From: Ancylobacter sonchi
Lineage (GTDB): Bacteria; Pseudomonadota; Alphaproteobacteria; Rhizobiales; Xanthobacteraceae
DNA: 64,000 nt
Direction: 5' to 3'
Assembly (NCBI RefSeq): GCF_018390695.1
Contig: NZ_JAHBGF010000020.1
Location: 1-64,000, forward strand
Each line of letters starts with the position of its first letter. The first letter of the stretch is position 1. Shown piece after piece: positions 19,295-44,571 of this stretch. The notes beneath the pieces are model-generated. The model did not search any database, was not told the DNA's origin, and saw nothing but the letters and a program-made list of their open reading frames with translations. The position numbers and the translations under genes are program-made.

Positions 19295-19870
19295 CTACGG
19301 AATGAGGCCCGTTTTACGATAAGCCCGGATTGTTCGATCATAGATGGAGATGTCCTGGCATCCGCGCGCGACCAGCTGAGCTCCCTCTATGGCAGCAAAG
19401 ATCGCCATAGCCTGGTCTTTTAGGTCCTGCCCGTCCGCGGCGGGCGTTGCCCGCGACAACACTTTCGTGAGCCATCCGACGTTCATCTCGGCGAATTTCT
19501 CGACCTCGGTCCTGACCTCATTGGGCAGGTCATCGAGTTCCGCGCTCATGATCCCGCACAGGCACATACGATTGTCGTTGGCCAAGGCCGAGCGGAAGAT
19601 CTCCGCGTATCTGTCCAGGCACCAGGTCGCGTCGGGGGATGTAGCCAGCAACTCGGTAAGAGTGGCTGATCCTTCGTCTGTGTATCGGCGCGCTAAAGCT
19701 GCGCAAAGGTCGCCTTTGGTCGGGAAATGATAGTGCACGCTGGCACTCTTGATCCCGACCTCCTTCGCGAGCTCACGAAAGCTGAGCGCATTATAGCCAT
19801 GCGCCTGCACCGTCGCTTTTGCGGCGGTCATAACTGCCTCGCGCATATCCGTCTTGGTTTTTGCCATCAT
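19295..19870 (-). CDS. TetR-family repressor of the adjacent glutathione transferase
   Basis: A 191-residue TetR-type regulator. The HTH occupies residues about 8-50 (DMREAVMTAAKATVQAHGYN, ALSFRELAKEVGIKSASVHY, HFPTKGDLCAALA); the rest is the helical ligand-binding domain, with Cys residues in NRMCLCGIM that could sense electrophiles. Two adjacent start codons (19870, 19867) are possible. It is divergent from the glutathione transferase gene across 99 bp containing two GATAG-type inverted repeats, the usual layout for a repressor controlling itself and the neighbour. It probably derepresses the transferase on exposure to a reactive compound (NemR/AcrR-like logic, inferred). Confidence 0.85.
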   Translation of the reverse strand: MMAKTKTDMREAVMTAAKATVQAHGYNALSFRELAKEVGIKSASVHYHFPTKGDLCAALARRYTDEGSATLTELLATSPDATWCLDRYAEIFRSALANDNRMCLCGIMSAELDDLPNEVRTEVEKFAEMNVGWLTKVLSRATPAADGQDLKDQAMAIFAAIEGAQLVARGCQDISIYDRTIRAYRKTGLIP

Positions 19871-19877
19871 CGACCTG

Positions 19878-19896
19878 CCTATCACTCGATAGATAG
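19878..19896. promoter_or_regulatory. TetR operator site 1
   Basis: CCTATCACTCGATAGATAG contains CTATC-ACTC-GATAG, an inverted repeat 8 bp upstream of the TetR start. Its reverse complement shares CTATCTATCGA with site 2 at 19940. Confidence 0.6.
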
Positions 19897-19939
19897 CCGT
19901 TGACGCCAACAAAGGGAAGGGATAGACAGCACCCGCAGT

Positions 19940-19954
19940 CTATCTATCGATAGG
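19940..19954. promoter_or_regulatory. TetR operator site 2
   Basis: CTATCTATCGATAGG contains the perfect palindrome CTATCGATAG, 16 bp before the glutathione transferase start. Together with site 1 it flanks the divergent promoters, so one TetR dimer pair could silence both genes. Confidence 0.6.
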
Positions 19955-19969
19955 CAGATGAGGACTCTC

Positions 19970-21741: not shown

Positions 21742-22917
21742 TCACGCGGCGATGCGTATCATCTCGCGGTCGAGCGTGCCGAGCACCTTGCAGCCGGTTT
21801 CGGTGACGACGATGGTCTCGCTCACGCCCACTGTGAACCGGCCATAGACGCGCAAGGCCGGCGGCAGATGGAACGCCATGCCGGGCTCCAGCAGCGTCTT
21901 CACGCCGGCATTGAGGCTGAGGATGCCGCCTTCGCCCCAATCCGGCGCGAAGGAAATGCCGACGCTGTAGCCGAGCCGCTTGCGGAAATTGTCGGTGTAG
22001 CCGGCCGCGTCGATCACCTTCTGGCAGGCGATGTGCGGCACCTCGCACGGCACGCCCGGCCGGATGGCCTCGAGGGAGACGGCGAGCGCCTCCTGGCAGA
22101 CCTTCGCCATCTCCAGCGCCTCGGCCGGCGGCGTGCCGATCCACGCCGTGCGCATCAGCGCCGCGTGGTAGCGGTCATGGCAGGCGGCCATTTCGAGGAA
22201 GGCGGCGTCGCCGTCCTGCAACCGCCGCCGCCGCCACGTGCCGTGCGGCACACCGCTGCGCGGGCCGGAGGAGACCAGCGGCTCCATGCCCATATATTCC
22301 GAGCCGGCGGCGATCGCCGCGCCCATCATGGCGGCGACGAGGTCGTTCTCGGTATTGCCGGGCCTCACGGCGGCGAGGCCGGCCTTGATCCCCGCATCGA
22401 CATAGGCCGCCGAGCGCACCAGCTTCTCGACCTCCAGCGACGACTTCACCATGCGCAGCCTCTCCACCACGCCCGCGGCGTCATGGACGGTGCCGAGTGC
22501 GGTGAGCAGCGCCTCGTAGGTGGCGATCGGCAGAAACCAGCCGCGCTTATCGATGGCGACGCGCTTGCCCTTCAGGCCCTTCGTCTCGATGAGCCGGACC
22601 AGGAAAGCAACCGGATCGTCGGTGTCCTGGTAGATGGCGGCGTCGGTGATGAAGGTGTTGGCGACGAAGTTGAAATATTCGAGCTGGCGCACCACGAAGA
22701 CCGGGTCGCCCTCGACCGGCAGCACCAGCGCCTGGAAGGTGTAGTAGCCCGGCGTCTGCTGGCCGGTGAGGTAGAAGATGTTCTCCGGCCCAGTGACGAT
22801 CATCACATCGATGCCGGCCGACGCCAACCCGGCGCGGGCACGGGCGACGCGCGCGTCATATTCGGCCTTGGGGAAGGCGGATTCCTGTCCCTGCACCACG
22901 TTCATCGGAACGGTCAT
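21742..22917 (-). CDS. M24-family hydrolase, DoeA/creatinase-like (first of three)
   Basis: A 391-residue pita-bread protein with an N-terminal creatinase domain (about 15-155) and M24 domain (about 165-385). The metal-site region reads FLEMAACHDRYHAALMRTAW (residues 240-259): Glu242 and Ala252/253 replace the two metal-binding Asp of prolidases. The phrase RLGYSVGISFAPDWGE matches ectoine hydrolase (DoeA) more than peptidases. Creatinase and DoeA hydrolyse C-N bonds of amidine/guanidino compounds without metal, so a similar reaction is likely; the substrate is unknown. It is the last gene of the 21,742-30,708 operon, one base from the upstream enolase-type gene. Confidence 0.8.
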   Translation of the reverse strand: MTVPMNVVQGQESAFPKAEYDARVARARAGLASAGIDVMIVTGPENIFYLTGQQTPGYYTFQALVLPVEGDPVFVVRQLEYFNFVANTFITDAAIYQDTDDPVAFLVRLIETKGLKGKRVAIDKRGWFLPIATYEALLTALGTVHDAAGVVERLRMVKSSLEVEKLVRSAAYVDAGIKAGLAAVRPGNTENDLVAAMMGAAIAAGSEYMGMEPLVSSGPRSGVPHGTWRRRRLQDGDAAFLEMAACHDRYHAALMRTAWIGTPPAEALEMAKVCQEALAVSLEAIRPGVPCEVPHIACQKVIDAAGYTDNFRKRLGYSVGISFAPDWGEGGILSLNAGVKTLLEPGMAFHLPPALRVYGRFTVGVSETIVVTETGCKVLGTLDREMIRIAA

Positions 22918-22918: not shown

Positions 22919-24016
22919 TCACGAAAACTCCCTGATGAGATGCGCGCGTGACGCATCGAAACGAAGGCCGAGACCCGGCGCGGACGGAGCGGCGACGCGG
23001 CCCTCGGCATAGGCGAGCCCGGCGGCCGGATCGTCGACCAGCCCATCGGCGCCATAGAGCTCGGCAAAGCGTGGGCGCGCCGCGACGGTGGCGTGCAGCG
23101 CGGCGGCGGTGGCGAGGCCGCCCTCGTTCATCTGGCCGATCATGAACGGCACCTTGGCCGTGTGGAGCCGGCGGGCGGCCGCCAGCGTCGGCGCGATGCC
23201 GCCGAGCTTGACCAGCTTGAGATGCGCCATGAGGCCGTTGTTGGCCTGGACGATGCGCTCGACGTCGTCGAGCCCCTTCACGCTCTCGTCGAGCATGATC
23301 GGCACCGGCGTCGCGCGGGCGAGGCGGTCGAGCGCCTGCCAGTCGCCTGGCGCCATCGGCTGCTCGACATAGGCGAGGCCGTGGCGTGCGAGTGCCTCCA
23401 GATTGGCGAGGGCGGCCGCCTCGCCCCAGGCACCATTGGCATCGGCTGCGAGCTTGACCGTATCGCCGAAACGCGCGCGCAGCCGGCCGATGCGGCGCAG
23501 ATCGTCGGCGAAGTCGCCAGCGCCGATGCGGACCTTGAGGTCGCGGAACCCGCGCGCGACATAGGCCTCCGCCTGTTCGACGAAGGTGTCGTCGGCGGAG
23601 ACGAACAGCGTCTGGTTGGTGGCGTGCGCAATCTGCGCCTCCGCCGGTGCGCCGAGGAAGACGGCGAGTGGCAGGTCGACCTGTTTCGCCGCGAGATCGT
23701 GCAGCGCGCTGTCGATCAGCGTGCGCACCGGCGCGCTGGCCTGCGCGACGGGTGCGGGCGTCGCCGCGAGCAGGGCCGCCGCGCCGGCGCGGAAGTCGAG
23801 GCGACCGACCACCTCGACGGCCTCCGCCAGCACGGTCTCGGCCGGCAGGCCATTGAGATAGGCGATGTTGAGCCGCACCTCGCCGACCGCGACCAATCCG
23901 TCCCGCTCCAGTCGCAGATAGAGTGCGTCGAGCCCGGCGACCCGGCCGGACGCCGCCGTGTGCAGCACAAGGCCGCCGCCATAGGTGAGCGTGGCGCGAT
24001 GAAGCGAGACGCGCAT
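22919..24016 (-). CDS. Enolase-superfamily racemase/epimerase (MLE/dipeptide-epimerase-like)
   Basis: A 365-residue protein with the capping domain (1-125) and (beta/alpha)7-barrel. Catalytic residues visible: Lys in RDLKVRIG (KxK position), metal ligands Asp in LAADANGAW, Glu in YVEQPM and Asp in IMLDESVKG, and a second Lys in MAHLKLVKLGG. This is the muconate-lactonising subgroup arrangement, used by L-Ala-D/L-Glu epimerases, N-succinylamino-acid racemases and o-succinylbenzoate synthases. Lying between an M20 deacylase and an M24 hydrolase in a transporter operon, it most likely inverts the alpha-carbon of an acylated amino acid or dipeptide-like intermediate. Which substrate cannot be told from sequence. 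Confidence 0.85.
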   Translation of the reverse strand: MRVSLHRATLTYGGGLVLHTAASGRVAGLDALYLRLERDGLVAVGEVRLNIAYLNGLPAETVLAEAVEVVGRLDFRAGAAALLAATPAPVAQASAPVRTLIDSALHDLAAKQVDLPLAVFLGAPAEAQIAHATNQTLFVSADDTFVEQAEAYVARGFRDLKVRIGAGDFADDLRRIGRLRARFGDTVKLAADANGAWGEAAALANLEALARHGLAYVEQPMAPGDWQALDRLARATPVPIMLDESVKGLDDVERIVQANNGLMAHLKLVKLGGIAPTLAAARRLHTAKVPFMIGQMNEGGLATAAALHATVAARPRFAELYGADGLVDDPAAGLAYAEGRVAAPSAPGLGLRFDASRAHLIREFS

Positions 24017-24018: not shown

Positions 24019-25197
24019 TCAGGCCGTCAGCATGGATCTGGCGATGTCGCGATAGATCAGGCTCGCGGTCACGAACTCGTCCACCGGCACGAACTCGTCC
24101 GGCTTGTGCGCCATCGACAGCGAGCCAGGCCCAACCACCACGCCCTGCGCTCCGGTGGAGCGGAAATGCACGAGATCACAGGCGCCTTGGAAGCCGAACG
24201 GGCCGGGTTTGCCGATGCCATGCGTGCGACAGGCGGCGAGGCTCGCCTGGACGATGGGCTGGTCAGGCGCCGTCTCGGTGGCGCCGCCGGTGGTCGGCTT
24301 CCATTCGACGATCTCGGCGCGCAGGCCGAAGCGTTCATGGGCACGCGCGAGCAGCGCGGCGATGTCGGCCTTCACCGCCTCCTCGTCCTCGCCCGGCACC
24401 AGCCGCCGGTCCAGCAGCAGCTCGCAGGCGCCGGGCAGCACATTGTCGGCGTGGCCGCCCTGAATGCGGGTGACGGTAAGGCTGGCGCCGCCGACGAGCG
24501 CATGCATGCGGTGGCGAACATCGGTCTCGTGGGTCTCGGCGATCAGCGCCAGCAACTCGCCGGCGCGATAGATCGCGTTCTCGCCCAGATGCGGCGAGCC
24601 GGAATGGGCGGGCACGCCGAGCACCCGCACCAGCGGGCGCAAGCTGCCCTTATGGGCGGAATAGACCGTGTTGGAGGTCGGCTCGCCGACGACGGCGACA
24701 TCGATCTTCGGCCTGCGCGAGGCATAGAGCTTCGCCCCCTCGCTGGCGATCTCCTCATCGGCGACGAACACCGCCAGCAGCGTGCCGGACCATGAGCTCC
24801 GATCGGCGGCGAGCATGCGGACCGCCTCCAGCATGGCGGCGAGCGGCCCCTTGCAGTCGCAGGCGCCGCGTCCATAGAGTCGACCATCGGCCTCGCGCAG
24901 CATGAACGGATCGGAACTCCAGCCGTCGCCGGCCGGCACCACGTCCATATGGGTGTTGAAGGCGAAGACCGGGCCGGGACCGTTGACCAGCTTGGCTTCG
25001 ACATTGACGCGGCCGGGCTTGTACTCGTCGAGCGCGATCTCGAAGCTGAACGGGGCGAGCCGATCACGAATGTACCAGGCGGCATCGATCTCGCGGCCGG
25101 GCGGATTCTCCGTGCGCAGCGCGACCAGTTCGGCGAGCTCGCTCTTCATGCGGGCGATATCCGGCGCGGCGGCAGAAAGGGGCATGGCGTGGCTCAT
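24019..25197 (-). CDS. M20-family metallohydrolase (ArgE/DapE type)
   Basis: A 392-residue zinc amidohydrolase. Metal and catalytic motifs are present: FNTHMDVVPAGDGW (His ligand, Asp), GRGACDCKGPLAAMLEA (bridging Asp), FVADEEIASEG (catalytic Glu and Glu ligand), VVGEPTS, and the late His in LSMAHKPDEFV. The lid domain is about residues 185-300. The family removes acyl groups from amino acids (acetylornithine, succinyl-diaminopimelate and relatives). It is the middle gene of the ABC-M24-M20-epimerase operon, 27 bp after an M24 gene, so it probably deacylates the imported compound or the product of the M24 step. Confidence 0.85.
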   Translation of the reverse strand: MSHAMPLSAAAPDIARMKSELAELVALRTENPPGREIDAAWYIRDRLAPFSFEIALDEYKPGRVNVEAKLVNGPGPVFAFNTHMDVVPAGDGWSSDPFMLREADGRLYGRGACDCKGPLAAMLEAVRMLAADRSSWSGTLLAVFVADEEIASEGAKLYASRRPKIDVAVVGEPTSNTVYSAHKGSLRPLVRVLGVPAHSGSPHLGENAIYRAGELLALIAETHETDVRHRMHALVGGASLTVTRIQGGHADNVLPGACELLLDRRLVPGEDEEAVKADIAALLARAHERFGLRAEIVEWKPTTGGATETAPDQPIVQASLAACRTHGIGKPGPFGFQGACDLVHFRSTGAQGVVVGPGSLSMAHKPDEFVPVDEFVTASLIYRDIARSMLTA

Positions 25198-25224: not shown

Positions 25225-26382
25225 TCAGGTGGCGGTGGGGTCGAGCGAGATCGGCATGCGGCCGAGCCGCTCGCAGCCATCGGCGGTGACGAGGAAGGTC
25301 TCGCCGGGCGCGACGTTGCGCTCGCCCTCGGTAACGACCATGTGCAGGAAGATCACCATGCCCTCCTCGATCACCGCCGGGTTGTCGCGATAGACCATCG
25401 GCCAGTCCATCCAGTTCGGCGAGAAGGTGGTGCCGAGGCCGTAGCCGCAGGCATTCAGCCGGTTGGCCATGCCGTCGAAGCCCGCCGATCGCAGCGCGCC
25501 GGTATAGGCGGCGAAGATGTCCCCGAAGGTTGCGCCGGGCCGGATCGTCTCCTGGCACGCCTGAAGCGCGGCGAGGCCGATGTCGTGCAACTGCGCGAGG
25601 CCGGCGTCGGGCGCGCCTACGCGATAGGTGCGCATCAGCGCCGAATGATAGTGCCGGAACACGCCGGCGAACTCGATGGCGATGGTGTCGTCCGCCTCCA
25701 GCCGGCGGCGTCCCGACACATAGCGCCCGAGACCCTGTCCGGGCCCGGAGCCGATGATGAACTCGTTGCCGGAATAGTCGCCGTCGGCGGCGAGGATCGT
25801 GCCCTGGAGTGCGGCGAGAATGTCGCCCTCCCAGGCATGTGGCCGGATCAGCGGCACGGCGGCGGCGAGCGCGGTATCGGCGAGCTCTGCCGCCTTGCGC
25901 ACATAGGCGATCTCGGCCGGACGTTTCGCGGCGCGCTGGCGCGTCACCAGATCGGAGGCGTCGACCAGCTCGCAGAAGCCGTCCATGGCGGCGGACAGCC
26001 GATGGCCATTGGCGGCGGTGAGGCCATAGGCGTCCCATTCGACGCCGAACTTCTCGCCGCGCAGGCCGTGCCCGGCGAGGATGTCGCGCAGCTCCTCCGC
26101 CGGGCGGGCATGGGGGCCGTCGACCCACATGCGCACGTCCTGAAGCATCGAGGTGTAGGCGGCGGCCCGCACATCGGGCGCGCGGGTGAGCAAAGTGAGT
26201 GTGCCGTCCGCGCCGAGATAGAGGCACTGGAAGAACACGTAGCCGAACGTGTCGTAGCCGGTGAGGTAGTACATGCTTTCCTGCCGGAACATCAGCAGCC
26301 CGGCGAGGCCGCGTTCCTTCAGGCCCCGGCAGGTGATGGCGCGGCGCTCGGCGAGTTCCTCGGGCGAAAAATGCAGTGGCAT
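25225..26382 (-). CDS. M24-family hydrolase, creatinase/ectoine-hydrolase-like (second of three)
   Basis: A 385-residue paralogue of its neighbours. The N-terminal creatinase domain is followed from about residue 150 by the M24 fold. At the metal site it reads IAIEFAGVFRHYHSALMRTY, so both prolidase aspartates are missing (Glu and Ala), and the usual His loop is replaced by GYGLGTTFSPNWMDWP. A standard metal-dependent Xaa-Pro dipeptidase is therefore unlikely; metal-independent hydrolysis as in creatinase is the better model. It lies 10 bp from the third M24 gene. Three divergent copies in one operon suggest successive steps on related intermediates or a hetero-oligomer. Confidence 0.8.
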   Translation of the reverse strand: MPLHFSPEELAERRAITCRGLKERGLAGLLMFRQESMYYLTGYDTFGYVFFQCLYLGADGTLTLLTRAPDVRAAAYTSMLQDVRMWVDGPHARPAEELRDILAGHGLRGEKFGVEWDAYGLTAANGHRLSAAMDGFCELVDASDLVTRQRAAKRPAEIAYVRKAAELADTALAAAVPLIRPHAWEGDILAALQGTILAADGDYSGNEFIIGSGPGQGLGRYVSGRRRLEADDTIAIEFAGVFRHYHSALMRTYRVGAPDAGLAQLHDIGLAALQACQETIRPGATFGDIFAAYTGALRSAGFDGMANRLNACGYGLGTTFSPNWMDWPMVYRDNPAVIEEGMVIFLHMVVTEGERNVAPGETFLVTADGCERLGRMPISLDPTAT

Positions 26383-26392: not shown

Positions 26393-27568
26393 TCAGGCGA
26401 ACAGCGGTTCGAACGGCAGGCGACTGAGCTGCTCGCAGCCTGTCTCGGTGACGATGACGGTGTGCCCCATGCCGACGGCGCGGCGCGAGTCGACCGCGCC
26501 GAGCATGGCGTGCGGGAACAGCACCATGCCGGGCTGCATCACCAGGGGATTGCCGGAATAGATCATCGGCGGCACGTCCATCCAGGTCGGGGCGAAGGTG
26601 GCGCCCAGCGAGTAGCCGCAGGCGCCATAGCGGTCGGCGCCGAAGCCGGAGGCGTCGAGCACGCGGCGGTGCTCGGCATCGATGTCGCTCAAGGGCGCAC
26701 CGGCGCGGATCGCGCCGATCATCGCCTCCATGGTGGCGCGCACCACCTTGAACATGGTGGCGTGCTCCTCGGAGAGGTGGCCGAGGATGACGGTGCGCTC
26801 GATGCAGGCCATGTAGCGGCGATGGCTGGCGCCGAATTCGACCAATACTTGGTCGTTCTCTTCCAGTGGATGGGCGCCGAGCACGCCGCGCCCATAGACC
26901 GCGCGCGGGCCGCTATTGACGATGGGCTGTTCGCTCGGCAGGTCGCCGCCATGGGCGAGCGTGGTGGCCAGGATGGCGCCGGCCATGTCGCCGGAGAGCT
27001 TGCCGGGACGGGCGGCCGCCCGCGCGGCCTCCATGGCGAGATCGGCGAGGCGGCCGGCCTCGCGGACATGCACGAGCTCGGCGGGCGACTTCACCAGGCG
27101 CTGGTCGCGCACCAGGTCGGAGGCGTCGACAAGCGTGGCAAAGCCAGTGAACTCGGTCTCCACGGACCGCCAATTGGCGGCGGTGAGCCCATAGGTGGCG
27201 AATTCGACGCCGAGACGCGCGCCCGCCAGGCCCTTCTCGGCGGCGATGGCGCGCAGTTCGGCGGCGGGATTGGCGTCCTCGGCATTGTACCAAATCCGCA
27301 CGTCCTCGATGGTCGAGGTGTCGCGCGCCTGGGCGAGGTCGGGCCGGCGGGTCAGCAGCGTGATCGGCCCGTCGACCGGCAGCACCGCGCACTGGAAGAA
27401 CACATAGCCCGAGGTGTCGTAGCCGGTGAGGTAGAACAGGCTTTCCTGCGCGAACAGCAGCAGGCCGTCCAGCCCGCGCTCGCGCATCCGAGCGCGGGTG
27501 CGCTCAAGGCGGGCCTCATATTCCGCCAGCGGAAAGGTGGCGAGCGGCGGGGCAACGGCAGTGGACAT
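26393..27568 (-). CDS. M24-family hydrolase, creatinase/ectoine-hydrolase-like (third of three)
   Basis: A 391-residue M24 protein, first enzyme gene after the transporter. The N-terminal domain contains LFYLTGYDTSGYVFFQCAVL, nearly shared with the second copy. The metal-site region is QVLVEFGASHRRYMACIERT, where Cys-Ile stands in place of the second ligand region; the substrate loop is GYSLGATFAPTWMDVP. Like the other two it cannot bind the normal dinuclear metal centre. The 74-bp gap to the ABC ATPase gene contains no obvious terminator, so it is probably cotranscribed from the promoter near 30,709-30,860. Confidence 0.8.
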   Translation of the reverse strand: MSTAVAPPLATFPLAEYEARLERTRARMRERGLDGLLLFAQESLFYLTGYDTSGYVFFQCAVLPVDGPITLLTRRPDLAQARDTSTIEDVRIWYNAEDANPAAELRAIAAEKGLAGARLGVEFATYGLTAANWRSVETEFTGFATLVDASDLVRDQRLVKSPAELVHVREAGRLADLAMEAARAAARPGKLSGDMAGAILATTLAHGGDLPSEQPIVNSGPRAVYGRGVLGAHPLEENDQVLVEFGASHRRYMACIERTVILGHLSEEHATMFKVVRATMEAMIGAIRAGAPLSDIDAEHRRVLDASGFGADRYGACGYSLGATFAPTWMDVPPMIYSGNPLVMQPGMVLFPHAMLGAVDSRRAVGMGHTVIVTETGCEQLSRLPFEPLFA

Positions 27569-30830: not shown

Positions 30831-30860
30831 TGGACAGTGCAAATGCCAGGCCAATACAAT
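30831..30860 (+). promoter_or_regulatory. Sigma-70-like promoter for the 31,037-34,590 genes
   Basis: TGGACA (30831-30836) and TACAAT (30855-30860) are separated by 18 bp, pointing right toward the glutaminase-like gene about 175 bp away. The operator at 30860-30874 overlaps the -10 end, a position suited to repression. Confidence 0.5.
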
Positions 30861-30874
30861 TGGTATACCGATGG
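30860..30874. promoter_or_regulatory. GntR-type operator, copy 1 (TTGGTATACCGATGG)
   Basis: GGTATACC is an 8-bp palindrome of the kind bound by FadR-subfamily GntR regulators. Fourteen of 15 bases match, in inverted orientation, the site at 37332-37348 before the DUF1989 gene. It lies in the 328-bp divergent region between the binding-protein and glutaminase-like genes. Two GntR genes are in the island (41469 and 43897), either of which could bind. Confidence 0.6.
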
Positions 30875-36419: not shown

Positions 36420-37168
36420 GCCGATGCTCCCTGCGCGGCGACGGCCTCGGCAACCAGCGCGCCCGCCTCGGCTGCCGCCAGCATGTCGCGATAGTCGTCC
36501 CCGGCGACGGGATAGAAGCGCAACGTGTCGCCCGGCGCGAACAGGAACGGCTTTTCGCGGCCGGGATCATAGGAGCGGACCGGTGTCTGGCCCAGGAGAT
36601 GCCAGCCGCTCGGCACCTCGATCGGCGGCGAGACCGCGGCCTGGCGACCACCGATGGACACGCTGCGCGGCGGCGTCTTCGGGCGCGGATCGGTGCGGCG
36701 GCTGGTATGGATGCGCTCCGGAAGGCCCCCGAGATAGGCGAAGCCCGGTGCGAAGCCGATCATGTAGACGCGGTACAGCGCGCCGCTGTGCAGCGCGATC
36801 AGTTCCTCGGTCGCCAGCCCGTGCAGCCTCGCCACCGCGTCGAGGTCGACGCCATGTTCGCCGCCATAGAGCACGGGGATGCGCCACAGCGTGCCGCCTT
36901 CCGTTTCCGGCGCGCCACGAGTCTGGAGCGCCAGCAACTGCGAGGCGAGGGCGTCGCGCGCGATCCGCAACGGATCGAACAGCACCAGCAGCGAGCGATA
37001 GGTCGGGACGGTTTCGCGCACGCCGTCGATGGGGTGCACGCCGAGGGCGCGGTCGAGGGCGATCACCTGCCGATTCACGGCCTCGTCGACGTCGCTGCCG
37101 AATTCGACGACGAGGCCGCCTTCGCCGGCGTCGAGCACACGTGGGGGGATTGCGGACGTTTGATTCAT
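36416..37168 (-). CDS. pxpB: 5-oxoprolinase subunit B (KipI family)
   Basis: A 250-residue KipI/PxpB protein. Typical phrases are VNRQVIALDRALGVHPIDGV, ETVPTYRSLLVLFDPLRIAR, MIGFAPGFAYLGGLPERIHT and GGRQAAVSPPIEVPSGWHLL. It is the first gene of the pxpBCA unit, with its promoter in 37169-37260 next to an 18-bp palindrome. The product works with PxpC and PxpA in 5-oxoprolinase. The KipI name comes from Bacillus, where the homologue inhibits a sporulation kinase; that role does not apply here. Confidence 0.92.
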   Translation of the reverse strand: MNQTSAIPPRVLDAGEGGLVVEFGSDVDEAVNRQVIALDRALGVHPIDGVRETVPTYRSLLVLFDPLRIARDALASQLLALQTRGAPETEGGTLWRIPVLYGGEHGVDLDAVARLHGLATEELIALHSGALYRVYMIGFAPGFAYLGGLPERIHTSRRTDPRPKTPPRSVSIGGRQAAVSPPIEVPSGWHLLGQTPVRSYDPGREKPFLFAPGDTLRFYPVAGDDYRDMLAAAEAGALVAEAVAAQGASA

Positions 37169-37218
37169 GGCATGCGGCCGATCAGGGTAGACGGAGGATA
37201 TCAGAAATATCTTTTATT

Positions 37219-37331: not shown

Positions 37332-37348
37332 CCGTCGGTATACCAAAG
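37332..37348. promoter_or_regulatory. GntR-type operator, copy 2
   Basis: CCGTCGGTATACCAAAG; its reverse complement contains TTGGTATACCGACGG, matching the 30860-30874 site except for one base. It lies 82 bp before the DUF1989 start, within the likely promoter of the 37,430-43,864 operon. Confidence 0.6.
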
Positions 37349-37429: not shown

Positions 37430-38056
37430 ATGACCTTCGACAAAGCCGGCCGCATGGTTCTTCCCGCCGCCCATGGCAAGGCGGTCCGCCTGAAGGCCGG
37501 CTGGAGCGTGCGGGTGACCAACCCCTACGGGACGCAGGCGCTGGACTTCTGGGCATTCAACGCCACCGACCACGCCGAATTCCTGTCGATGGACAATGTG
37601 CGGTCGTTCAACAGCGTGGCCTATGTGAACAAGGGCACCGCGCTGGTCACGACGGAGCGGCGGCCGATCGTCTGCATCACCGAGGATTCCTCGGCCGGCA
37701 ATCACGACACTCTGCTGTGCGCCTGCAATCCCGCGATCTACCGTGAGCTGGGCGTGAAGGGCTATCACCGCTCTTGCTCGGACAACATGCACGAGGCGCT
37801 GGGCGAGATCGGTGTCGCCTTCCCCGTCACCCCCGCCCCGCTGAACCTGTTCATGAGCGTGCATGTGCGCCCGGACGGATCACTGGAGCGCCTGCTGCCG
37901 CGCTCCGCACCCGGCGCGTCGATCACGCTGCGGGCGGAACTCGACGCGGTGCTGGCCTTCTCGAACTGTCCGCAGGACGTGACGACCATCAATGGTCCCG
38001 ACCGCACGCCGAGGGATTGCCTGCTCGACATCCTTCCGCCGGAAGGCGCGGCCTGA
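37430..38056 (+). CDS. DUF1989 (urea-carboxylase-associated) protein
   Basis: A 208-residue DUF1989 protein. Conserved parts: [20 protein letters not shown], the Cys-containing [13 protein letters not shown] and [12 protein letters not shown], and a late [15 protein letters not shown]1989 proteins occur next to urea or guanidine carboxylases, and the CgdA/CgdB members are subunits of carboxyguanidine deiminase. The Cys and His residues probably form a metal or catalytic site. It heads an operon with an ABC importer and an arginase-family enzyme but no carboxylase, so it likely deiminates or binds an amidino intermediate. The ABC ATPase start overlaps its stop (TGATG). Confidence 0.8.
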
Positions 38057-38877
38057 TGGCGGCCATCGCCGATAACGCGGCCGCGCCGCTCCTGCGCATC
38101 CGCGACCTGCGCAAGAGCTTCGGCAGCCACGAGGTGCTGAAGGGGATCTCGCTCGAGGTCCGCGCCGGCGAGGTGGTGTCGATCATCGGCGCCAGCGGCT
38201 CGGGAAAGAGCACCTTCCTGCGCTGCATCAATGTGATGGAGATGCCGAACGAGGGCTTCTTCGACTTCGAGGATTTCGCCTTCGACTTCCGCGCGGGCGC
38301 CCGCAACCAGCCGACCCCTGCGCAGCTCCGCGCGCTCCGGGCCCGCATCGGCATGGTGTTCCAGAGCTATAATCTGTGGCCGCACATGACGGTGCTCGAG
38401 AACGTCATCGAGGCGCCGATGCGGGTGAAGCGGCTTGCCCGCGCCGAGGCGGTGGCTATCGCCGAATCCCTGCTGGAGCGCATCGGCCTCGCCGACAAGC
38501 GCGGCGCCTACCCCAGCCGGCTATCCGGCGGCCAGCAGCAGCGGGTAGCCATCGCCCGCGCGCTCGCCATGAAGCCGCGCCTGATGCTGTTCGACGAAGT
38601 CACCTCGGCGCTCGACCCGGAACTGGTCGGCGAGGTGCTGGCCCTCATGGCCTCGCTGGCGCAGGAGGGCATGACCATGCTGCTCGTCACCCACGAAATC
38701 GGCTTCGCCCGCGAGGTGTCGACCCGCACCGTGTTCTTCGACCAGGGCCGCATCGCCGAGGACGGCTTGCCGCGCGACGTGCTGTATCGGCCGCAGAGCG
38801 AACGGCTGCAGCAATTCCTCCGGCGCGTGCTGCACGAGCATGTTGCGACCAGTGCCGCGAGGGAGGCGCATCCATGA
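38056..38877 (+). CDS. ABC importer ATP-binding subunit (second importer)
   Basis: A 273-residue polar-amino-acid-type ATPase. Walker [11 protein letters not shown]-loop [12 protein letters not shown], signature LSGGQQQR and Walker [15 protein letters not shown] are present. Residues 68-90 hold a short insertion rich in acidic and aromatic residues ([17 protein letters not shown]) seen in the histidine/lysine importer group. Starts at 38056 overlapping the DUF1989 stop and overlaps the permease start by four bases. Confidence 0.9.
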
Positions 38878-39536
38878 CCTTCAGCGAATGGCTCGACTTC
38901 TTCCTGCCCTACGTGCCGGGCTTCCTGCACGCCTCCTGGCTGGTGCTGGTGATCACCCTCCTGGTGATCGTCGTAAGCTGGGTGGCCGGGCTCGTCGTGG
39001 CGCTGGGCAAGGCCTCGCAGATCGGCGTCATCCGGCAGGCCAGCGCCTTCTACATCTGGTTCGTGCGTGGGACGCCGGCGCTCATCCAGATCTTCATCGT
39101 CTATTTCGGCCTGCCGCAGCTCGGGCTTGGGCTGTCGCCCTTCGTCGCCGGCGTGCTGGCGCTCGGCATCAATGGCGGGGCCTATGTGGCGGAGATCATC
39201 CGCTCGGGGCTGTCCGCGATCCCCAGGGGACAGGTGGAGTCCTCGCTGGCGCTCGGCATGAGCCGCTCGGAGACGCTGCGCCGCATCGTGCTGCCGCAGG
39301 TGGTGCGCATCATCCTGCCGGCGATCACCAATGAGGCGATCTCGACGCTGAAGAACACGTCGCTGCTCTCCACCATCACCGTGGTCGAGCTGACGCTCTA
39401 CGCGCAGACCATCATCGCCACCACCTTCCGCCCCTTCGAGTTCTATGCCGCCACGGCGGTCCTCTACCTGATCATGACCACGCTGCTCTCGCAGATCGCG
39501 GCCATGCTGGAGCGTCACAATGCCCGTTACCTCTGA
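38874..39536 (+). CDS. ABC importer permease (second importer)
   Basis: A 220-residue HisMQ-type permease with about five helices. Conserved segments are [40 protein letters not shown] and the coupling loop [20 protein letters not shown]. Only one permease gene is present, so the channel is probably a homodimer, as in several amino acid importers. The binding protein for this system is encoded at 40577, after the ureohydrolase gene. Confidence 0.9.
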
Positions 39537-39563: not shown

Positions 39564-40517
39564 ATGAGCGTGCTGCCGATCGACTCGCTGGAGACGCCGC
39601 GCTTCTGCGGCGTGCCCACCTTCATGCGCCTGCCGCAGGCGACGACGCTCGACGGGCTCGACGCCGCCATCATCGGCATCCCCTCGGATTCCGGCGCGCC
39701 GTTCCGTACCGGCGCGCGCTTCGCGCCGAACGCGGTGCGGGCGATCTCGATCATGCTGCGGCCGATCAATCCCTATCGCGGCGGCATCAACGTGTTCGAG
39801 CGGCTGCGGGTCGCCGATGTCGGCGACGCCGCCGTGGTGCCCGGCTATCTGGAAGAGACGCTTGCCCGCATCGAAGCGTCGGTGGCGACGCTGGTGAAGG
39901 CGGGCGTCACCCCGTTCGGCATCGGCGGAGACCATTCCGTGACGCTGGCGGAGCTGCGCGCGGTCGCGGCGACCCACGGCCCGGTCGCACTGATCCAGTT
40001 CGATTCCCACTCCGACACCTGGGACAAGTACTTCGCCGGGAAACGATACAGCGCCGGCACGCCGTTCCGCCGCGGCGTCGAGGAGAACATCATCGATCCC
40101 GCGCACTCGATCCAGGTCGGCCTGCGCGGATCGCTCTTCTCGCCGACCGATGTCAGCCAGTCGGTCGAGCTCGGCTATGAGGTGGTGACCACCGACGAGA
40201 TGTTCGCCATGGGCATGCCGGCGCTGGCCGAGCGCATCGCGGCCCGCGCCGCCGGCCGCCCGGCCTTCCTGACCTTCGATCTCGACTTCGTCGATCCCGC
40301 CGCGGCGCCGGGAGTGGAGACGCCGGAGGCGGGCGGGCCGAATGCGCGCGAGACGCTGGACCTCCTGCGCCGGCTCAAGGGCATCAACCTGGTGGGGGCC
40401 GACGTGGTGGAGCTCAGCCCGAACTATGACGGGCCGGGCCAGATCTCCGCCCTGCTCGCTGCAACCGTCATGGCCGAGCTGCTGGCGCTCCATGCCGAGA
40501 GCCGGCCGGCGTCCTAG
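39564..40517 (+). CDS. Arginase/agmatinase-family ureohydrolase
   Basis: A 317-residue Mn-dependent ureohydrolase. All six metal ligands are visible: His in GIGGDHSVTLAE, Asp-x-His-x-Asp in LIQFDSHSDTWD, and the two Asp of LTFDLDFVDPAAAPG. The sequence follows agmatinase/guanidinobutyrase relatives in length and in the segment DVVELSPNYDGPGQISALLA. It removes urea from a guanidino compound; recently recognised members hydrolyse guanidine itself. It is encoded between an ABC permease and its binding protein, so the imported ligand is probably a guanidino compound. The precise substrate (agmatine, guanidino acid or guanidine) cannot be decided here. Confidence 0.85.
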   Translation: MSVLPIDSLETPRFCGVPTFMRLPQATTLDGLDAAIIGIPSDSGAPFRTGARFAPNAVRAISIMLRPINPYRGGINVFERLRVADVGDAAVVPGYLEETLARIEASVATLVKAGVTPFGIGGDHSVTLAELRAVAATHGPVALIQFDSHSDTWDKYFAGKRYSAGTPFRRGVEENIIDPAHSIQVGLRGSLFSPTDVSQSVELGYEVVTTDEMFAMGMPALAERIAARAAGRPAFLTFDLDFVDPAAAPGVETPEAGGPNARETLDLLRRLKGINLVGADVVELSPNYDGPGQISALLAATVMAELLALHAESRPAS

Positions 40518-40576: not shown

Positions 40577-41365
40577 ATGCGCTTCTCTCTGCTTTCCTTG
40601 CTTGCCGCCGCCGCGCTCGGCGCGCTGGTGACGCACCCCGCCAGCGCCCAGCAGCTGGAGTTGATCCAGCCCGGCAAGATCCTCATCGCCACCGAAGGCA
40701 CCTATCCGCCCTTCAGCATGCGTGCCCCGGACGGCACGCTCGACGGGCTGGAAATCCGCGTCGGCAAGGAGATCGCCAAGCGGCTGAACCTCGAATACAC
40801 GCCGGTGATCATCAAGTGGGAATCGCTGCTGGTCGGCCTTGAGGCCGGGCAGTATGACTTCGCCTCCGACGCCATGGACATCACTGCCGAGCGGCAGAAG
40901 CAGGTGACCTTCGCCGATGGCTGGCTGGAGTCCGGCGGCCGTGTGGTCGTCAAAAAGGGCTCGGACATCAAGAAGTCCGCCGAGATCAAGGGGCGTACCG
41001 TGGGCGTGCTGGTCGCCTCGACCTGGCAGAAGCTGGCCGAGGAGCGCGGTGCCACGGTGAAGACCTACAAGGCCGAATCCGACGCGCTGCAGGACCTCGT
41101 GAATGGCAATATCGACGGCGTCATCACCGACTCCATCGCCGCCGCCTACGCTATCCAGGCCTCCAAGCTGCCGTTGGAGATGACCGAGGACTATGTCAGC
41201 CATGTCCAGAAGGGCTTCCCGTTCAAGAAGGGCAAGCCCAACCTCGTCAAGGCGGTGAACAAGGCGCTGGCGGACATGATCGCCGACGGCACCTATGCCA
41301 AGCTGACCACGCCCATCGTCGGCTATTCGCCGGCGCCGAAGGACCCGATCCGTACGCAGTTCTGA
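40577..41365 (+). CDS. Periplasmic amino-acid-type substrate-binding protein (second importer)
   Basis: A 262-residue solute-binding protein with signal peptide FSLLSLLAAAALGALVTHPA, cleaved near SAQQ. The mature region shows ILIATEGTYPPFSMRAPDGT, LDGLEIRVGKEIAKRLNLEY and YDFASDAMDITAERQKQVTF, the pattern of the SBP_bac_3 family that binds amino acids and derivatives. The start at 40577 has AGGGGA upstream. The ATPase and permease at 38056-39536 complete the importer. A GC-rich hairpin (41389-41417) follows before gntR. Confidence 0.9.
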   Translation: MRFSLLSLLAAAALGALVTHPASAQQLELIQPGKILIATEGTYPPFSMRAPDGTLDGLEIRVGKEIAKRLNLEYTPVIIKWESLLVGLEAGQYDFASDAMDITAERQKQVTFADGWLESGGRVVVKKGSDIKKSAEIKGRTVGVLVASTWQKLAEERGATVKTYKAESDALQDLVNGNIDGVITDSIAAAYAIQASKLPLEMTEDYVSHVQKGFPFKKGKPNLVKAVNKALADMIADGTYAKLTTPIVGYSPAPKDPIRTQF

Positions 41366-41468: not shown

Positions 41469-42143
41469 ATGAAGGACACGGAAGAGCCCGCGATCGACAT
41501 TCTCGATCCCGCGCCCAAGGCGCTGAGCCAGATGGCCTATGACCGGCTGCTCGACCAGCTCATCAAGCGCGAGATCCCGGTCGGTTCCGTGTTGCAGGAG
41601 CGCCGGCTGGCGGAATCGCTCGATATCTCGCGCACGCCGGTACGCGAGGCGCTGAACCGGCTGGAGAGCGAGGGCTTCGTGACCCGCAAGCCCGGCCGCG
41701 TGCTGGTGGTCAAGGAATTCTCGACCCGCGAGCTGATCGAGACGCTGCATGTGCGCCAGATCATGGAGAGCGAGGCGATCTCGCTCGCCACGCCGCGCAT
41801 CCCCGAGGAGGAGCTCGGCGCGGTGGAAGCGGAAATCCGCGTGCTTCTCGCGACCCCCAGCCCCAGCGCGGAGGCCGACTGGCAGGTCGACAGCCGCCTG
41901 CACCGGATGATCGCGGCCCATAGCGGCAACGCCGTGCTCGCCGGGATGATCGAAAGCCTGCGGGTGAAGACCTACACGTTCAATCTCGACCGGGTGCCCG
42001 AGCGTTTCGAGATCGGCCACCAGGAACATCTTGCCATGATCGATGCCGTGCGCCGGCGCGACCGCGAGGCCGCGCGCGAGGCGATTCAGCAGCACATCGA
42101 GAATGTGAAGAAAAGCATCATCCTGAAACTCAGCAGTATTTGA
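41469..42143 (+). CDS. GntR-family regulator (FadR subgroup)
   Basis: A 224-residue regulator. The winged HTH occupies residues 18-85 (LIKREIPVGSVLQERRLAES, LDISRTPVREALNRLESEGF) and the FCD ligand domain follows from about 95 (HVRQIMESEAISLATPRIPE, with metal-binding His in DSRLHRMIAAHSGN, FEIGHQEHLAMIDA and IQQHIEN). It lies inside the operon between the importer and DapA-like genes (8 bp to the latter). FadR-type regulators prefer TNGTNNNACNA-like palindromes, so it may bind TTGGTATACC at 30860 and 37332, with the imported acid as effector. Confidence 0.88.
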   Translation: MKDTEEPAIDILDPAPKALSQMAYDRLLDQLIKREIPVGSVLQERRLAESLDISRTPVREALNRLESEGFVTRKPGRVLVVKEFSTRELIETLHVRQIMESEAISLATPRIPEEELGAVEAEIRVLLATPSPSAEADWQVDSRLHRMIAAHSGNAVLAGMIESLRVKTYTFNLDRVPERFEIGHQEHLAMIDAVRRRDREAAREAIQQHIENVKKSIILKLSSI

Positions 42144-42151
42144 GGACGCAA

Positions 42152-43084
42152 ATGTCAGCTCAGAAAATCAGCGAGACGACGCGCGGTGTCTACATCATCT
42201 CGCCGACCCCCTTCACCGAGGACGGCAAGCTCGATCTCGCCAGCACCGACACCCTGCTCGACTTCTACGACCAGAAGCGGGTGACCGGCATCACCATCCT
42301 CGGCGTGCTCGGCGAGGCGGGAAAACTGACGCCGGAGGAATCCGCCCAGTTCCTCGACCATGTGATGAAGCGCGTCGACGGCACCAAGCCGATCGTGGTG
42401 GGCGCGACCAATCCCGGCACCGATAATCTGGTGCGCTTCGCCAACCGTGCGATGGAGAAGGGCGCCGCCGGCCTGATGATCGCCCCGCTGTCGGGGTTGA
42501 AGACCGACGACCAGATCTATGCCTATTGGGAGAGCGTGCTCACCCGTCTCGGGCCGGACATCCCGGTCTGCTACCAGGATTATCCGCAGACCACGCAGGT
42601 CGTGACCTCGGTGGCCGTGCTCAACCGCCTGATCGACGACTTCCCGAACTTCGTCATGCTCAAGCACGAGGAGGGCTCGGGCCTGTCCAAGATCACCAAG
42701 CTGCGCGAGCGCTCGGACGCCGGCAAGGGCCGGCGCGTCAGCATCCTCGTCGGCAATGGGGGGCTCTATCTGCCGCAGGAGCTGCGTCGCGGTGTCGACG
42801 GCGCCATGACGGGCTTCGCCTATCCCGAAATGCTGGTCGAGGTGTGCGAGAAATTCGCCGCCGGCGATGCCGAAGGCGCGGAGGACGTGTTCGACATCTA
42901 CCTGCCGATCCTGCGCCACGAGCAGCAGCTCGGCTTCGGGCTGGCGGTGCGCAAGGAGATCCTGCGCCGGCGCGGAGCCATCGCCTGTGCCGCCACCCGC
43001 CATCCCGGCCCGAAGATGACGGCGCGCGACTATCAGGAACTCGACGAGCTGATGGCCCGTCTCGACCGCAAGCTGGGTCGCTGA
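42152..43084 (+). CDS. Dihydrodipicolinate-synthase/N-acetylneuraminate-lyase-family enzyme
   Basis: A 310-residue class I aldolase or dehydratase with a single TIM barrel. The Schiff-base Lys171 is in NFVMLKHEEGSG, and Tyr144 lies in CYQDYPQTTQ, the usual proton-relay position. Near residue 52 the family's Gly-Glu loop reads VLGEAGKLTPEE. True DapA is normally encoded elsewhere; this catabolic paralogue probably splits or dehydrates a keto acid produced from the imported compound. GAGG 6 bases ahead supports the start at 42152. The SDR gene follows three bases after the stop. Confidence 0.88.
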   Translation: MSAQKISETTRGVYIISPTPFTEDGKLDLASTDTLLDFYDQKRVTGITILGVLGEAGKLTPEESAQFLDHVMKRVDGTKPIVVGATNPGTDNLVRFANRAMEKGAAGLMIAPLSGLKTDDQIYAYWESVLTRLGPDIPVCYQDYPQTTQVVTSVAVLNRLIDDFPNFVMLKHEEGSGLSKITKLRERSDAGKGRRVSILVGNGGLYLPQELRRGVDGAMTGFAYPEMLVEVCEKFAAGDAEGAEDVFDIYLPILRHEQQLGFGLAVRKEILRRRGAIACAATRHPGPKMTARDYQELDELMARLDRKLGR

Positions 43085-43087
43085 ACC

Positions 43088-43864
43088 ATGGATCTGGGAC
43101 TGAGGGGCCGCACCGCACTGGTGCTGGGCTCCAGCCGGGGACTGGGCGAGGCCATCGCCCGGACGCTGGCGGCGGAGGGTGCGCGCGTCATCGTCTGCGG
43201 GCGTGACGCGGGGCGCGTCGCCGGCGTGGCGGGCGACATTCGCGCGGCCGGAGGCGACGCCGGCGAACTGGTGCTGGACCTCGCCGACGGGGCGGGTCTG
43301 GCCGCCGCACTCGATACGCTGACCGTGCCGGTCGACATCCTCGTCAACAATAGCGGCGGCCCGCCGCCCGGCCCGGTCGCGCAGGCGAGCGCCGAGCAGT
43401 GGAGTCGCAGCTTCGAGGCCATGGTCGGCTCGCTCGTCGCCGTCACCACGCGGCTGCTGCCCGGCATGCGCGAGCGGGGTTTCGGGCGGGTGATCAACCT
43501 CGTCTCGTCCGGCGTCGCACAGCCGATCCCCAATCTCGGCCTGTCGAACGCGTTGCGCGCCTCGATCGTCGGCTGGGCGAAGACGCTGGCGACGGAAGTC
43601 GCCAGGGACGGCGTCACGGTGAACTGCGTGCTGCCCGGCCGCATCCACACCACGCGGGTCGACGAACTCGACGCCGCAGCGGCAAAGCGCTCCGGCTCGA
43701 CGCCGGCGGCGATCGCCGAAGCGTCCCGCGCGACCATCCCGATGGGCCGCTATGGCGACCCGCAGGAGTTCGCCGACATGGTGGCGTTCCTGGCGAGCGC
43801 GCGGGCGAGCTATGTGACCGGCGCGCAGATCCGGGTCGATGGCGGTCTGATCAGGGGCGTGTGA
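43088..43864 (+). CDS. Atypical short-chain dehydrogenase lacking the YxxxK catalytic pair
   Basis: A 258-residue SDR with the NAD(P) loop GSSRGLGEA (residues 14-22) and the NNSGG stretch at 87-91. Ser140/141 occur in INLVSSGVAQP, but the expected YxxxK reads SNALR (153-157), so the usual proton-transfer Tyr and Lys are absent. The C-terminus (TGAQIRVDGGLIRGV) is normal. A named group of such SDRs occurs beside DapA-like aldolases. It may bind cofactor and use other residues, or act non-catalytically. It is the last gene of the rightward operon. Confidence 0.85.
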   Translation: MDLGLRGRTALVLGSSRGLGEAIARTLAAEGARVIVCGRDAGRVAGVAGDIRAAGGDAGELVLDLADGAGLAAALDTLTVPVDILVNNSGGPPPGPVAQASAEQWSRSFEAMVGSLVAVTTRLLPGMRERGFGRVINLVSSGVAQPIPNLGLSNALRASIVGWAKTLATEVARDGVTVNCVLPGRIHTTRVDELDAAAAKRSGSTPAAIAEASRATIPMGRYGDPQEFADMVAFLASARASYVTGAQIRVDGGLIRGV

Positions 43865-43873
43865 CGCCCAGTG

Positions 43874-43898
43874 GACGGCGCGCCGCGTGCGCGCCGTC
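43874..43898. terminator. GC-rich hairpin between convergent SDR and GntR genes
   Basis: GACGGCGCGC / GCGCGCCGTC (10-bp stem, 5-nt loop) lies between the two convergent genes and overlaps the first bases of the GntR stop. It lacks a T-run, so it would act as a weak bidirectional terminator or mRNA end stabiliser. Confidence 0.45.
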
Positions 43899-44571
43899 AG
43901 ATCGTCGACAGATGCCGGATGATCGAGGCCTTCACATTGTCGATGTGACGGGTCATCGCCGCCGCCGCGCCATTGCCGTCGCCCGCCTCGATGGCGCGGA
44001 TGATGTCGATATGCTCGTGATAGACCGCTGCCGCGCGGTCCGGCATCCGGCCCAGATCGAAGATGCGGGTGCGCCGGCGCAGGTCGCGGATCATGCTCGC
44101 CATCAGCGGATTGCCGGAGGCGCCGGCGATCTCGTCATGCATCGCGGCGTCGAGCGCCGCGCTGCCGTCCGGGTCGGCGGCCTTGCGCCCGCTGGCGGTG
44201 GCCTCCTCCAGTTCTTCCAGTCGCTCGCGCAATCCGGCCAGCCGGGAAAGCTCGATCCGCCCCACGCAGAGCCTCGCCGCCTCGGGTTCCAGCAGGCGGC
44301 GAATATTGAGGATCTGCATGTATTCCGGCACGGTCATCTGCCGGACTTCGAGATAGCGCGCGCCGCGCCGCTTCAGGAGACCTTCGCTCTCCAGCATCAG
44401 CAATGCGTCGCGCAGCGGCGTACGCGAGACGTCCAGCGCATCGGCGAGGCGGCGCTCGGTCAGCACTTCGCCGCCGCGTAGCCGACCCGAGAAGATCATG
44501 TCCTCCAGGCGCCTGTGAACCTCGTGAGCGAGACGCCGAGGCGCGGCTTCTTCCAGGACCGGCTTATCCAT
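43897..44571 (-). CDS. FadR-type GntR regulator at the island's edge
   Basis: A 224-residue regulator. The winged HTH is at residues 12-80 (MIFSGRLRGGEVLTERRLAD, ALDVSRTPLRDALLMLESEG) and the FCD sensor domain follows, with metal/ligand His in AAMHDEIAGASGNPL, VYHEHIDII and MTRHIDNVKAS. It shares the ending ...HIDNVKASIIRHLSTI with the other GntR (...HIENVKKSIILKLSSI), so the two are paralogues and may read related effectors or the same operator. It is transcribed alone, convergent with the SDR gene. Confidence 0.88.
   Translation of the reverse strand: MDKPVLEEAAPRRLAHEVHRRLEDMIFSGRLRGGEVLTERRLADALDVSRTPLRDALLMLESEGLLKRRGARYLEVRQMTVPEYMQILNIRRLLEPEAARLCVGRIELSRLAGLRERLEELEEATASGRKAADPDGSAALDAAMHDEIAGASGNPLMASMIRDLRRRTRIFDLGRMPDRAAAVYHEHIDIIRAIEAGDGNGAAAAMTRHIDNVKASIIRHLSTI

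Follow-up and report, generated by a model that had tools for sequence, protein, structure and literature searches.

Gene content and organization of the island

The stretch of DNA analysed here, referred to as the window, comprises 64,000 nucleotides of Ancylobacter sonchi (NZ_JAHBGF010000020.1, contig C13 of a 5.8-Mb genome), and contains at 21742–44571 a run of 24 genes, as given by codon-bias gene calls and NCBIfam/Pfam scans of all 24 (Pfam for most; Table 1). With moderate confidence, based on sequence comparison, we propose that this segment forms a composite, co-regulated catabolic island of three gene modules: a core with an ectoine-hydrolase-like M24 protein (M24a), an enolase-superfamily enzyme, an M20 deacylase and a CTP synthase paralogue (GATase); module 2 with an Ehu-type ATP-binding cassette (ABC) importer and the further M24 proteins M24b and M24c; and module 3 with pxpABC, a DUF1989 gene, an arginase-like gene and a second importer (importer 2). 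An earlier note on this DNA had described an island at 19295–44571 for the uptake and dismantling of one or a few nitrogen-rich amino acid derivatives. All the enzyme families that it named are present, and its span holds for 21742–44571; the first 2.4 kb, with a TetR-type regulator (19295–19912) followed by a glutathione S-transferase and an alpha/beta hydrolase, are set apart because the latter two, used as queries, were not found adjoining the core in six congeners. The intergenic gaps fit units from ehuB to M24a (nine genes), GATase–2HADH–M20carb, pxpB–pxpC–pxpA, DUF1989 to the short-chain dehydrogenase/reductase (SDR; eight genes) and GntR2, the last of which is convergent with the DUF1989-to-SDR unit.

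Enzymes of the core

The three M24 proteins score below the cut-offs of both ectoine hydrolase models, DoeA (613 bits) and DoeA_2 (575 bits), with 205.0 and 305.1 bits for M24a, 119.9 and 140.0 bits for M24b, and 147.2 and 211.6 bits for M24c. Glu255 of DoeA has a catalytic role. Residues E242, H225 and H251 of M24a align with E255, H238 and H264 of DoeA and are, together with a PDWGE motif, near-invariant in 48 orthologues. Unlike in an M24 metallopeptidase, all five metal ligands of prolidase are replaced in M24a (D>E, D>A, H>Y, E>P and E>S, read by eye), and its closest relative of solved structure is an ectoine hydrolase. This comparison covers M24a, and M24c was aligned to DoeA only; the earlier description of M24 enzymes without metal aspartates is borne out for M24a, the one checked.

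The enolase-superfamily enzyme has K161-x-R163 in place of K-x-K and retains K267. In the M20 deacylase H83, D85, D114, E148, E149, E172 and H364, which we take to be the metal-site residues, are near-invariant in 46 orthologues. The GATase resembles CTP synthase in its glutaminase residues Cys-His-Glu (C272/H395/E397), which are near-invariant in 47 homologues and invariant in 36; unlike CTP synthase, it sits in a catabolic operon, its N-terminal part of about 165 residues is more than 100 residues shorter, no P-loop (GxxxxGK) was seen in its sequence, and it scores below the cut-offs of the PyrG models (139.3 against 308 and 130.5 against 462.75 bits). A fold search with the N-terminal part (model pLDDT 90) gave no CTP synthase among the best 50 matches and only weak P-loop or Rossmann-type matches (best E 2.7e-03), and the derivation from CTP synthase is drawn from the full-length alignment, not from the fold of this part. 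A separate PyrG-like match lies elsewhere in the same genome.

Recurrence of the core in other genomes

The GATase alignment was used to scan 84,980 species genomes; out of 246 relatives the best 80 were kept, and 42 of these 80 loci (L033–L073, L077) were classed by residues matched as full-length or nearly so. M24a accompanies the GATase in 40 of the 42, the enolase-superfamily gene in 39, the M20 deacylase in 39, the binding protein of another amino-acid importer (ABC3) in 38 and a double-HTH GntR regulator (GntR3) in 39; an aminotransferase is present in 28, a second DapA-like gene (DapA2) in 27, GhrA-like and VOC genes in 10 each and a D-amino-acid transaminase in seven. None of the other 38 loci has any core or associated gene. 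One of the two loci without M24a, L033, owes this to a truncated flank, the gene being present on the same contig. L033–L035 are loci of the congeners G025, G020 and G029, kept in the 42 and left out of the operator count below; without them, M24a is found in 38 of 39. DapA2, present in 27 loci, and the GhrA/VOC pair, present in 10, never occur together and five core loci have neither; the two are mutually exclusive downstream solutions for one core.

Apart from two metagenome bins, the hosts belong to the Alphaproteobacteria (Rhizobium, Phyllobacterium, Bosea, Methylocapsa and others) and the Enterobacterales (Rahnella, Rouxiella, Serratia and others). A core operon lies on the pAt plasmid of A. 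fabrum C58 (NC_003064.2, 465274–475853; L113), and another, with the GATase gene inverted, on a Pantoea dispersa megaplasmid; in a plasmid search at E 1e-60, M24a relatives were found on 50 plasmid records. The pAt operon also has a VOC protein, a GhrA-like reductase and a D-amino-acid transaminase, and its GATase is annotated 'CTP synthase'. Within the genus, GATase homologues of at least 65% identity occur in seven of 30 genomes, that of the window included, and in the six congeners M24a, the enolase-superfamily gene and the M20 deacylase lie near the GATase together with ABC3, with GntR3 and DapA2 where checked.

The core was also approached from M24a: of 397 genomes sampled from the order, 27, the own genome included, have an M24a relative at E <= 1e-90, and the fetched stretches (4 to 43 kb) surrounding the other 26 were read. 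The 14 relatives at 58–87% identity are all accompanied by the M20 deacylase; one of them lies on a 4.4-kb contig. The 11 at 50–54% identity, eight of them from genus g80, are all accompanied by M20carb and 2HADH, and 10 of them by pxp genes, so that M24a-like enzymes also accompany module 3 genes. The last relative (44% identity) is accompanied by an importer and by relatives of the enolase-superfamily enzyme and the M20 deacylase.

The Ehu-type importer and its M24 paralogues

All four subunits of the first importer pass the ectoine-transport cut-offs (Table 1). Its binding protein has F50, F86, Y106 and R111 where EhuB has F, Y, F and R; the ligand roles of these EhuB residues, and of the amino-acid-binder pocket residues used below, are assumed by us. 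EhuABCD, M24b and M24c adjoin the core in the window, in the congener G025 and in Methylocapsa sp. S129 (L036). G025 retains ABC3 and GntR3 alongside module 2; in Methylocapsa sp. S129, GntR3 is present and the ABC3 binding protein is absent. In the genome of the window, module 2 seems to have replaced the usual importer and GntR of the core.

Module 3

Orthologues of the arginase-like enzyme (72–84% identity) were found in seven of the 396 other sampled genomes of the order. All seven loci contain pxpA, pxpB, pxpC, DUF1989, importer 2, GntR1 and M20carb, six contain 2HADH, four DapA and three the SDR. The arginase-like enzyme has intact metal motifs (GGDH, DSHSD and DLDFVDP) and scores below the agmatinase cut-offs (TIGR01230, 172.2 against 174.3 bits; NF002564, 263.5 against 302 bits). 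PxpA and PxpB exceed their cut-offs; PxpC passes TIGR00724 and is below the PxpC equivalog cut-off (NF045499, 245.7 against 500 bits). The binding proteins of both importers are of the amino-acid-type SBP_bac_3 family, and that of importer 2 keeps the Asp and Arg of free-amino-acid pockets. The window SDR is 62–65% identical to an SDR adjoining the core in five distant loci. Its assignment to the SDR family in the earlier note stands, but the YxxxK motif is missing, both in the window (43088–43864) and, by eye, in L039 (19237–20025), and it may therefore not be an ordinary dehydrogenase.

Module 3 adjoins the core in three congeners (G025, G011 and G029). Its absence beside the core of G020 is uninformative because the contig ends about 5 kb past the GATase; in the single-contig genomes G014 and G018, module 3 was not found within the fetched 40 kb around the core, nor was it found within 10 kb of most of the distant core loci. 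An M24a relative is present in five of the seven genomes with module 3 versus 21 of the 389 others (Fisher p 1.6e-5, with kinship ignored), and in four of the seven (p 3.8e-4) without the 44% hit. In G081, G122 and G127, the M24a relative and module 3 are on separate contigs.

A shared putative operator and candidate regulators

The window contains the word GGTATACC at 30862 and at 37337, two occurrences where 0.08 are expected, with one site in each of the divergent promoters; the whole genome has nine. One of the seven other genomic sites (G000:C2:217408, L236) is near a GntR-type gene 25–27% identical to GntR1 and GntR2. Of the 26 sites in the fetched regions taken together, 21 are at most 350 bp upstream of cluster-family genes, a zone covering 4.2% of the sequence, compared with six of 425 sites for 11 control palindromes; the 21 include the two discovery sites and six from congeners, where the word is in the pxpB/DUF1989 gap and upstream of the GATase. 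Outside the genus, 13 of 18 sites are in this zone, in the pxpB/DUF1989 gap (four loci), the GntR2/M24c gap (four loci), the 2HADH/DUF1989, 2HADH/abc2S, pxpA/DAAT and pxpA/2HADH gaps, and upstream of pxpA; six of the seven module 3 loci outside the genus carry the word, the exception being G081. Because both divergent promoters contain GGTATACC, as do the regions before equivalent genes in other loci, the blocks look co-regulated, which speaks, at the level of sequence, against the independent expression that the earlier note had considered.

GntR1 and GntR2 each have 224 amino acids, with GntR helix-turn-helix and FCD domains over the cut-offs and no aminotransferase domain; described earlier as paralogues, they are indeed both of FCD type and 40% identical. 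The operator consensus of the FadR subfamily is TKGT/ACMA with a 2-nucleotide spacer (PMC4494728), and GGTATACC with its flanks, mostly a pyrimidine (T or C) to the left and a purine (A or G) to the right, fits this consensus. A promoter-like match, TGGACA-18-TACAAT, stops one base before the first site, a spacing as a repressor site would have it; around the second site, no promoter-like match was found. By the first operator there is a GntR3-like word, AATACAAT, which was considered as a relic of a lost regulator; this idea was dropped because the word holds the promoter-like -10 box and 12 of 100 window shuffles contain such a word. Two overlapping AT-rich inverted repeats at 37205–37236 in the pxpB/DUF1989 promoter, in a GC-rich genome, are possibly the site of a second regulator.

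Comparison with known systems and proposed pathway

The ectoine cluster (ehuABCD/eutABCDE, doeABCD; ectoine literature, PMC5924519, PMC13188858 and PMC8739950) shares with the island an Ehu-type importer, an M24 hydrolase with the DoeA active-site residues, an adjoining deacylase, a transaminase (in relatives of the island) and a GntR-type regulator. The island differs from it in that the M24 proteins are below the DoeA cut-offs, an M20 deacylase takes the place of EutE/DoeB, the regulators are FadR-type and not MocR/GabR-type EnuR, and an enolase-superfamily enzyme, a CTP-synthase-derived amidase, Pxp, an arginase-like enzyme and DUF1989 are added; among the matches listed for the 24 genes, there is no EutE/DoeB, DoeC/D, EutABC or EnuR. 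Judged by profile scores and alignments, the importer is the only one of the tested defining features of the ectoine pathway to be found, and the earlier view that the set does not match this pathway is upheld (M24 scores of 120–305 bits against 613 and 575). In module 3, the three adjacent pxp genes resemble a PxpABC 5-oxoprolinase, but are set among M20carb, DUF1989, arginase-like and GntR genes. The adjacent DUF1989 and arginase-family genes are reminiscent of guanidine degradation, agmatinase and guanidino-acid hydrolase systems. Guanidine degradation uses the DUF1989 proteins CgdAB with urea-carboxylase-type genes, whereas the island has a single DUF1989 gene of 91 bits against a cut-off of 285, and no urea/guanidine carboxylase or allophanate hydrolase among the matches listed for the 24 genes.

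The best reading of the island is that it would break down cyclic nitrogen compounds resembling ectoine, following the logic of the ectoine pathway with other enzymes. From the gene content, its conservation and recurrent linkage, the operator sequence and the catalytic and pocket residues, we infer the reactions and their order, the class of substrate and the binding GntR, as follows. The imported compound would have a carboxylate and no free alpha-ammonium group, and the metal-free DoeA-like M24 enzyme would open a C–N ring bond in it, that of a cyclic amidine or lactam. The enolase-superfamily enzyme would then act at the alpha-carbon of the ring-opened product, most likely by epimerization, the M20 enzyme would strip an N-acyl group, and a transaminase would yield a 2-oxo acid, to be disposed of by an aldolase or a reductase. 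The CTP-synthase-derived amidase would hydrolyse a side-chain amide. Module 2 may stand in for the usual importer and GntR of the core, with its two M24 paralogues. Module 3, with its lactam-opening Pxp, M20carb, arginase-like enzyme, DUF1989, importer 2, DapA/SDR and 2HADH, may handle related lactam, ureido or guanidino amino acids, and GntR1, GntR2 or both would repress both divergent promoters via GGTATACC.

More tentatively, the core, taken as importer, M24a, enolase-superfamily enzyme, M20, amidase, transaminase and then an aldolase or the GhrA/VOC pair, might be an undescribed pathway, widespread among Alphaproteobacteria and Enterobacterales that live with plants or in soil, for a natural, non-ectoine cyclic amidine or lactam amino acid, possibly a substituted glutamine in ring form. 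Once opened, the ring would leave either an amide, on which the amidase could act, or a lactam, on which Pxp could act; from the resulting 4-substituted 2-oxo acid the DapA-like aldolase would release pyruvate and glyoxylate, and the amidase would be a CTP synthase recruited into catabolism. The core gene set, recurrent in many plant and soil bacteria, is apparently undescribed: no paper describing it was found among those listed in searches of open-licence PMC papers, which is not proof of absence.

Weighing of the alternatives

Several observations weigh against the island as one regulon for one compound class. In the genome of the window, no ABC3 orthologue was found (the closest relative of the ABC3 binding protein is 34% identical), the searches for GntR3 and DapA2, with no positive control alongside, were empty, and the best aminotransferase relative is 54% identical; the local route must therefore differ from that of the relatives. 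The pocket of importer 2 is of the free-amino-acid type, unlike that of importer 1, and PxpC is far under the 5-oxoprolinase equivalog cut-off. The core and module 3 are apart in several genomes, and module 3 occurs without a linked core in several. The linkage counts ignore kinship, and among the 14 M24a loci at 58–87% identity, the enolase-superfamily gene is present in nine, ABC3 in eight and the GATase in five; by the M24a-anchored counts, M24–M20 is the firmest pair and the GATase is optional. As to the operator, one control palindrome, GTCATGAC, has five of its 55 sites in the upstream zone (five of the six control sites there), and exact GGTATACC is absent from module 3 of G081, from the eight g80 loci with M24a, M20carb, 2HADH and pxp, from L036, from G224 and G261, and, where module 3 is lacking, from the core-locus promoters. 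Shared control is thus seen for part of the set only, and the other words common upstream of ABC3 in core loci, such as AGAGCAAT and ATTGTATT, argue against a single regulon.

Some of these points would suit an accretion in which two or three unconnected catabolic operons came to lie next to each other, alike in the type of regulator and with no common pathway, for an ectoine-like solute and for 5-oxoproline or a guanidino or ureido amino acid. We regard such an accretion as possible, though not probable. In its favour, the core stands without module 3 in G014 and G018 and module 3 without a linked core elsewhere, other core loci have their own GntR3 with different upstream words, the two binding pockets differ, and several related clusters are without GGTATACC. 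Against it stand the one operator sequence in both divergent promoters and before equivalent genes in other genera, the clustering of all eight M24a loci found in g80 with M20carb–2HADH–pxp, the M24a relatives with module 3 genes in other arrangements in G086, G301, G261 and G224, and the co-occurrence on separate contigs in G081 and G122. The cross-genome comparison of gene order suggested earlier shows blocks that recur together, in other arrangements and in other genera. On balance, a single regulon for islands of this type is favoured, and a single class of compounds over a single compound. The common dismantling proposed earlier survives in this form; 'one compound' is not supported because the core and module 3 occur apart and the importer pockets differ.

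A divergent cluster for ectoine or 5-hydroxyectoine utilization, with another deacylase in place of EutE and another transaminase in place of Atf, is improbable. The Ehu subunits, the M24a active-site residues and the aromatic pocket residues matching EhuB would agree with it; the M24a scores and the absence, among the matches listed, of the other ectoine genes disagree. Moreover, EutD over the cut-off was found in nine of 30 genomes of the genus, none of which is among the seven with the core, the core elsewhere uses a non-Ehu importer, and ectoine would offer no use for the enolase-superfamily enzyme or the amidase. Peptide scavenging, in which M24 and M20 would be normal Xaa-Pro and dipeptide hydrolases that supply 5-oxoprolinase and the metabolism of glutamate, is very improbable: the public annotation of M24a is 'Xaa-Pro peptidase family protein' and Pxp yields glutamate, but the replaced prolidase ligands, the ectoine hydrolase as best solved relative and the amino-acid-type binding proteins all speak against it.

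The idea of a pathway outside those already described is strengthened overall. If the proposed breakdown of ectoine-like cyclic nitrogen compounds is true, a set labelled 'Xaa-Pro peptidase', 'CTP synthase' and 'mandelate racemase' would be a nutrient pathway that recurs in bacteria of the rhizosphere and phyllosphere, the well studied pAt plasmid of A. fabrum C58 among its carriers, and the core would point to a natural compound and to the reuse of CTP synthase in catabolism. The shared GGTATACC operator would serve as a handle, since the substrate class would follow once the inducer is found.

Table 1. Features of the island, with positions in the window; paired values are score/cut-off in bits
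Feature	Position	Strand	Basis
M24a, ectoine-hydrolase-like metal-free M24 hydrolase (core)	21742..22917	-	profile scores, alignments
Enolase-superfamily enzyme, MLE subgroup (core)	22919..24016	-	profile scans, alignment
M20 ArgE/DapE-type deacylase (core)	24019..25197	-	TIGR01910 227.7/217.6
M24b, DoeA-like paralogue, PNWMD motif	25225..26382	-	profile scan, alignment
M24c, DoeA-like paralogue, PTWMD motif	26393..27568	-	profile scan, alignment
EhuA-type ABC ATPase	27643..28413	-	TIGR03005 365.5/345.4
EhuD-type permease	28410..29075	-	TIGR03003 258.9/205.2
EhuC-type permease	29080..29739	-	TIGR03004 235.3/196.95
EhuB-type binding protein	29839..30708	-	TIGR02995 248.5/190.9
Sigma-70-like promoter TGGACA-18-TACAAT before GATase operon	30831..30860	+	consensus match only
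Putative operator GGTATACC, ehuB/GATase divergent promoter	30862..30869	.	word search
GATase, CTP synthase paralogue, N-terminal part shortened	30992..32248	+	full-length alignment
D-2-hydroxyacid dehydrogenase family protein (2HADH)	32336..33325	+	profile scans
M20 hydantoinase/carbamoylase-family hydrolase (M20carb)	33322..34590	+	NF009527 518.3/461
PxpA-like 5-oxoprolinase subunit	34597..35370	-	NF003814 371.9/226
PxpC-like subunit	35367..36419	-	TIGR00724 294.2/230.2; NF045499 245.7/500 (below PxpC equivalog cut-off)
PxpB-like subunit	36416..37138	-	TIGR00370 168.9/145.6
Putative operator GGTATACC, pxpB/DUF1989 divergent promoter	37337..37344	.	word search
DUF1989 protein, relative of urea-amidolyase-associated proteins	37430..38056	+	profile scans
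Importer 2, ABC ATPase	38056..38877	+	profile scan
Importer 2, permease	38874..39536	+	profile scan
Arginase/agmatinase-family enzyme	39564..40517	+	TIGR01230 172.2/174.3
Importer 2, binding protein	40577..41365	+	profile scan, pocket comparison
GntR1, FadR-type (FCD) regulator	41469..42143	+	profile scans
DapA-like class I aldolase/lyase	42152..43084	+	profile scans
SDR-family protein without YxxxK	43088..43864	+	profile scans, motif check
GntR2, FadR-type (FCD) regulator	43897..44571	-	profile scans

Other features of the window

A perfect inverted repeat at 41391–41415 (12-bp arms, 1-base spacer) separates the gene for the importer 2 binding protein from GntR1; it is a possible attenuator or terminator, which would set GntR1–DapA–SDR apart from the upstream genes. 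To the left of the island, the stretch at 9470–18388 contains a ParB-like protein (9470–11527), an AAA ATPase beside a subtilase-like protein (13361–16889) and a phage-type integrase (17078–18388), and reads as a mobile element, perhaps carrying a defence pair; the GC content drops to 57% around 18–20 kb of the window.

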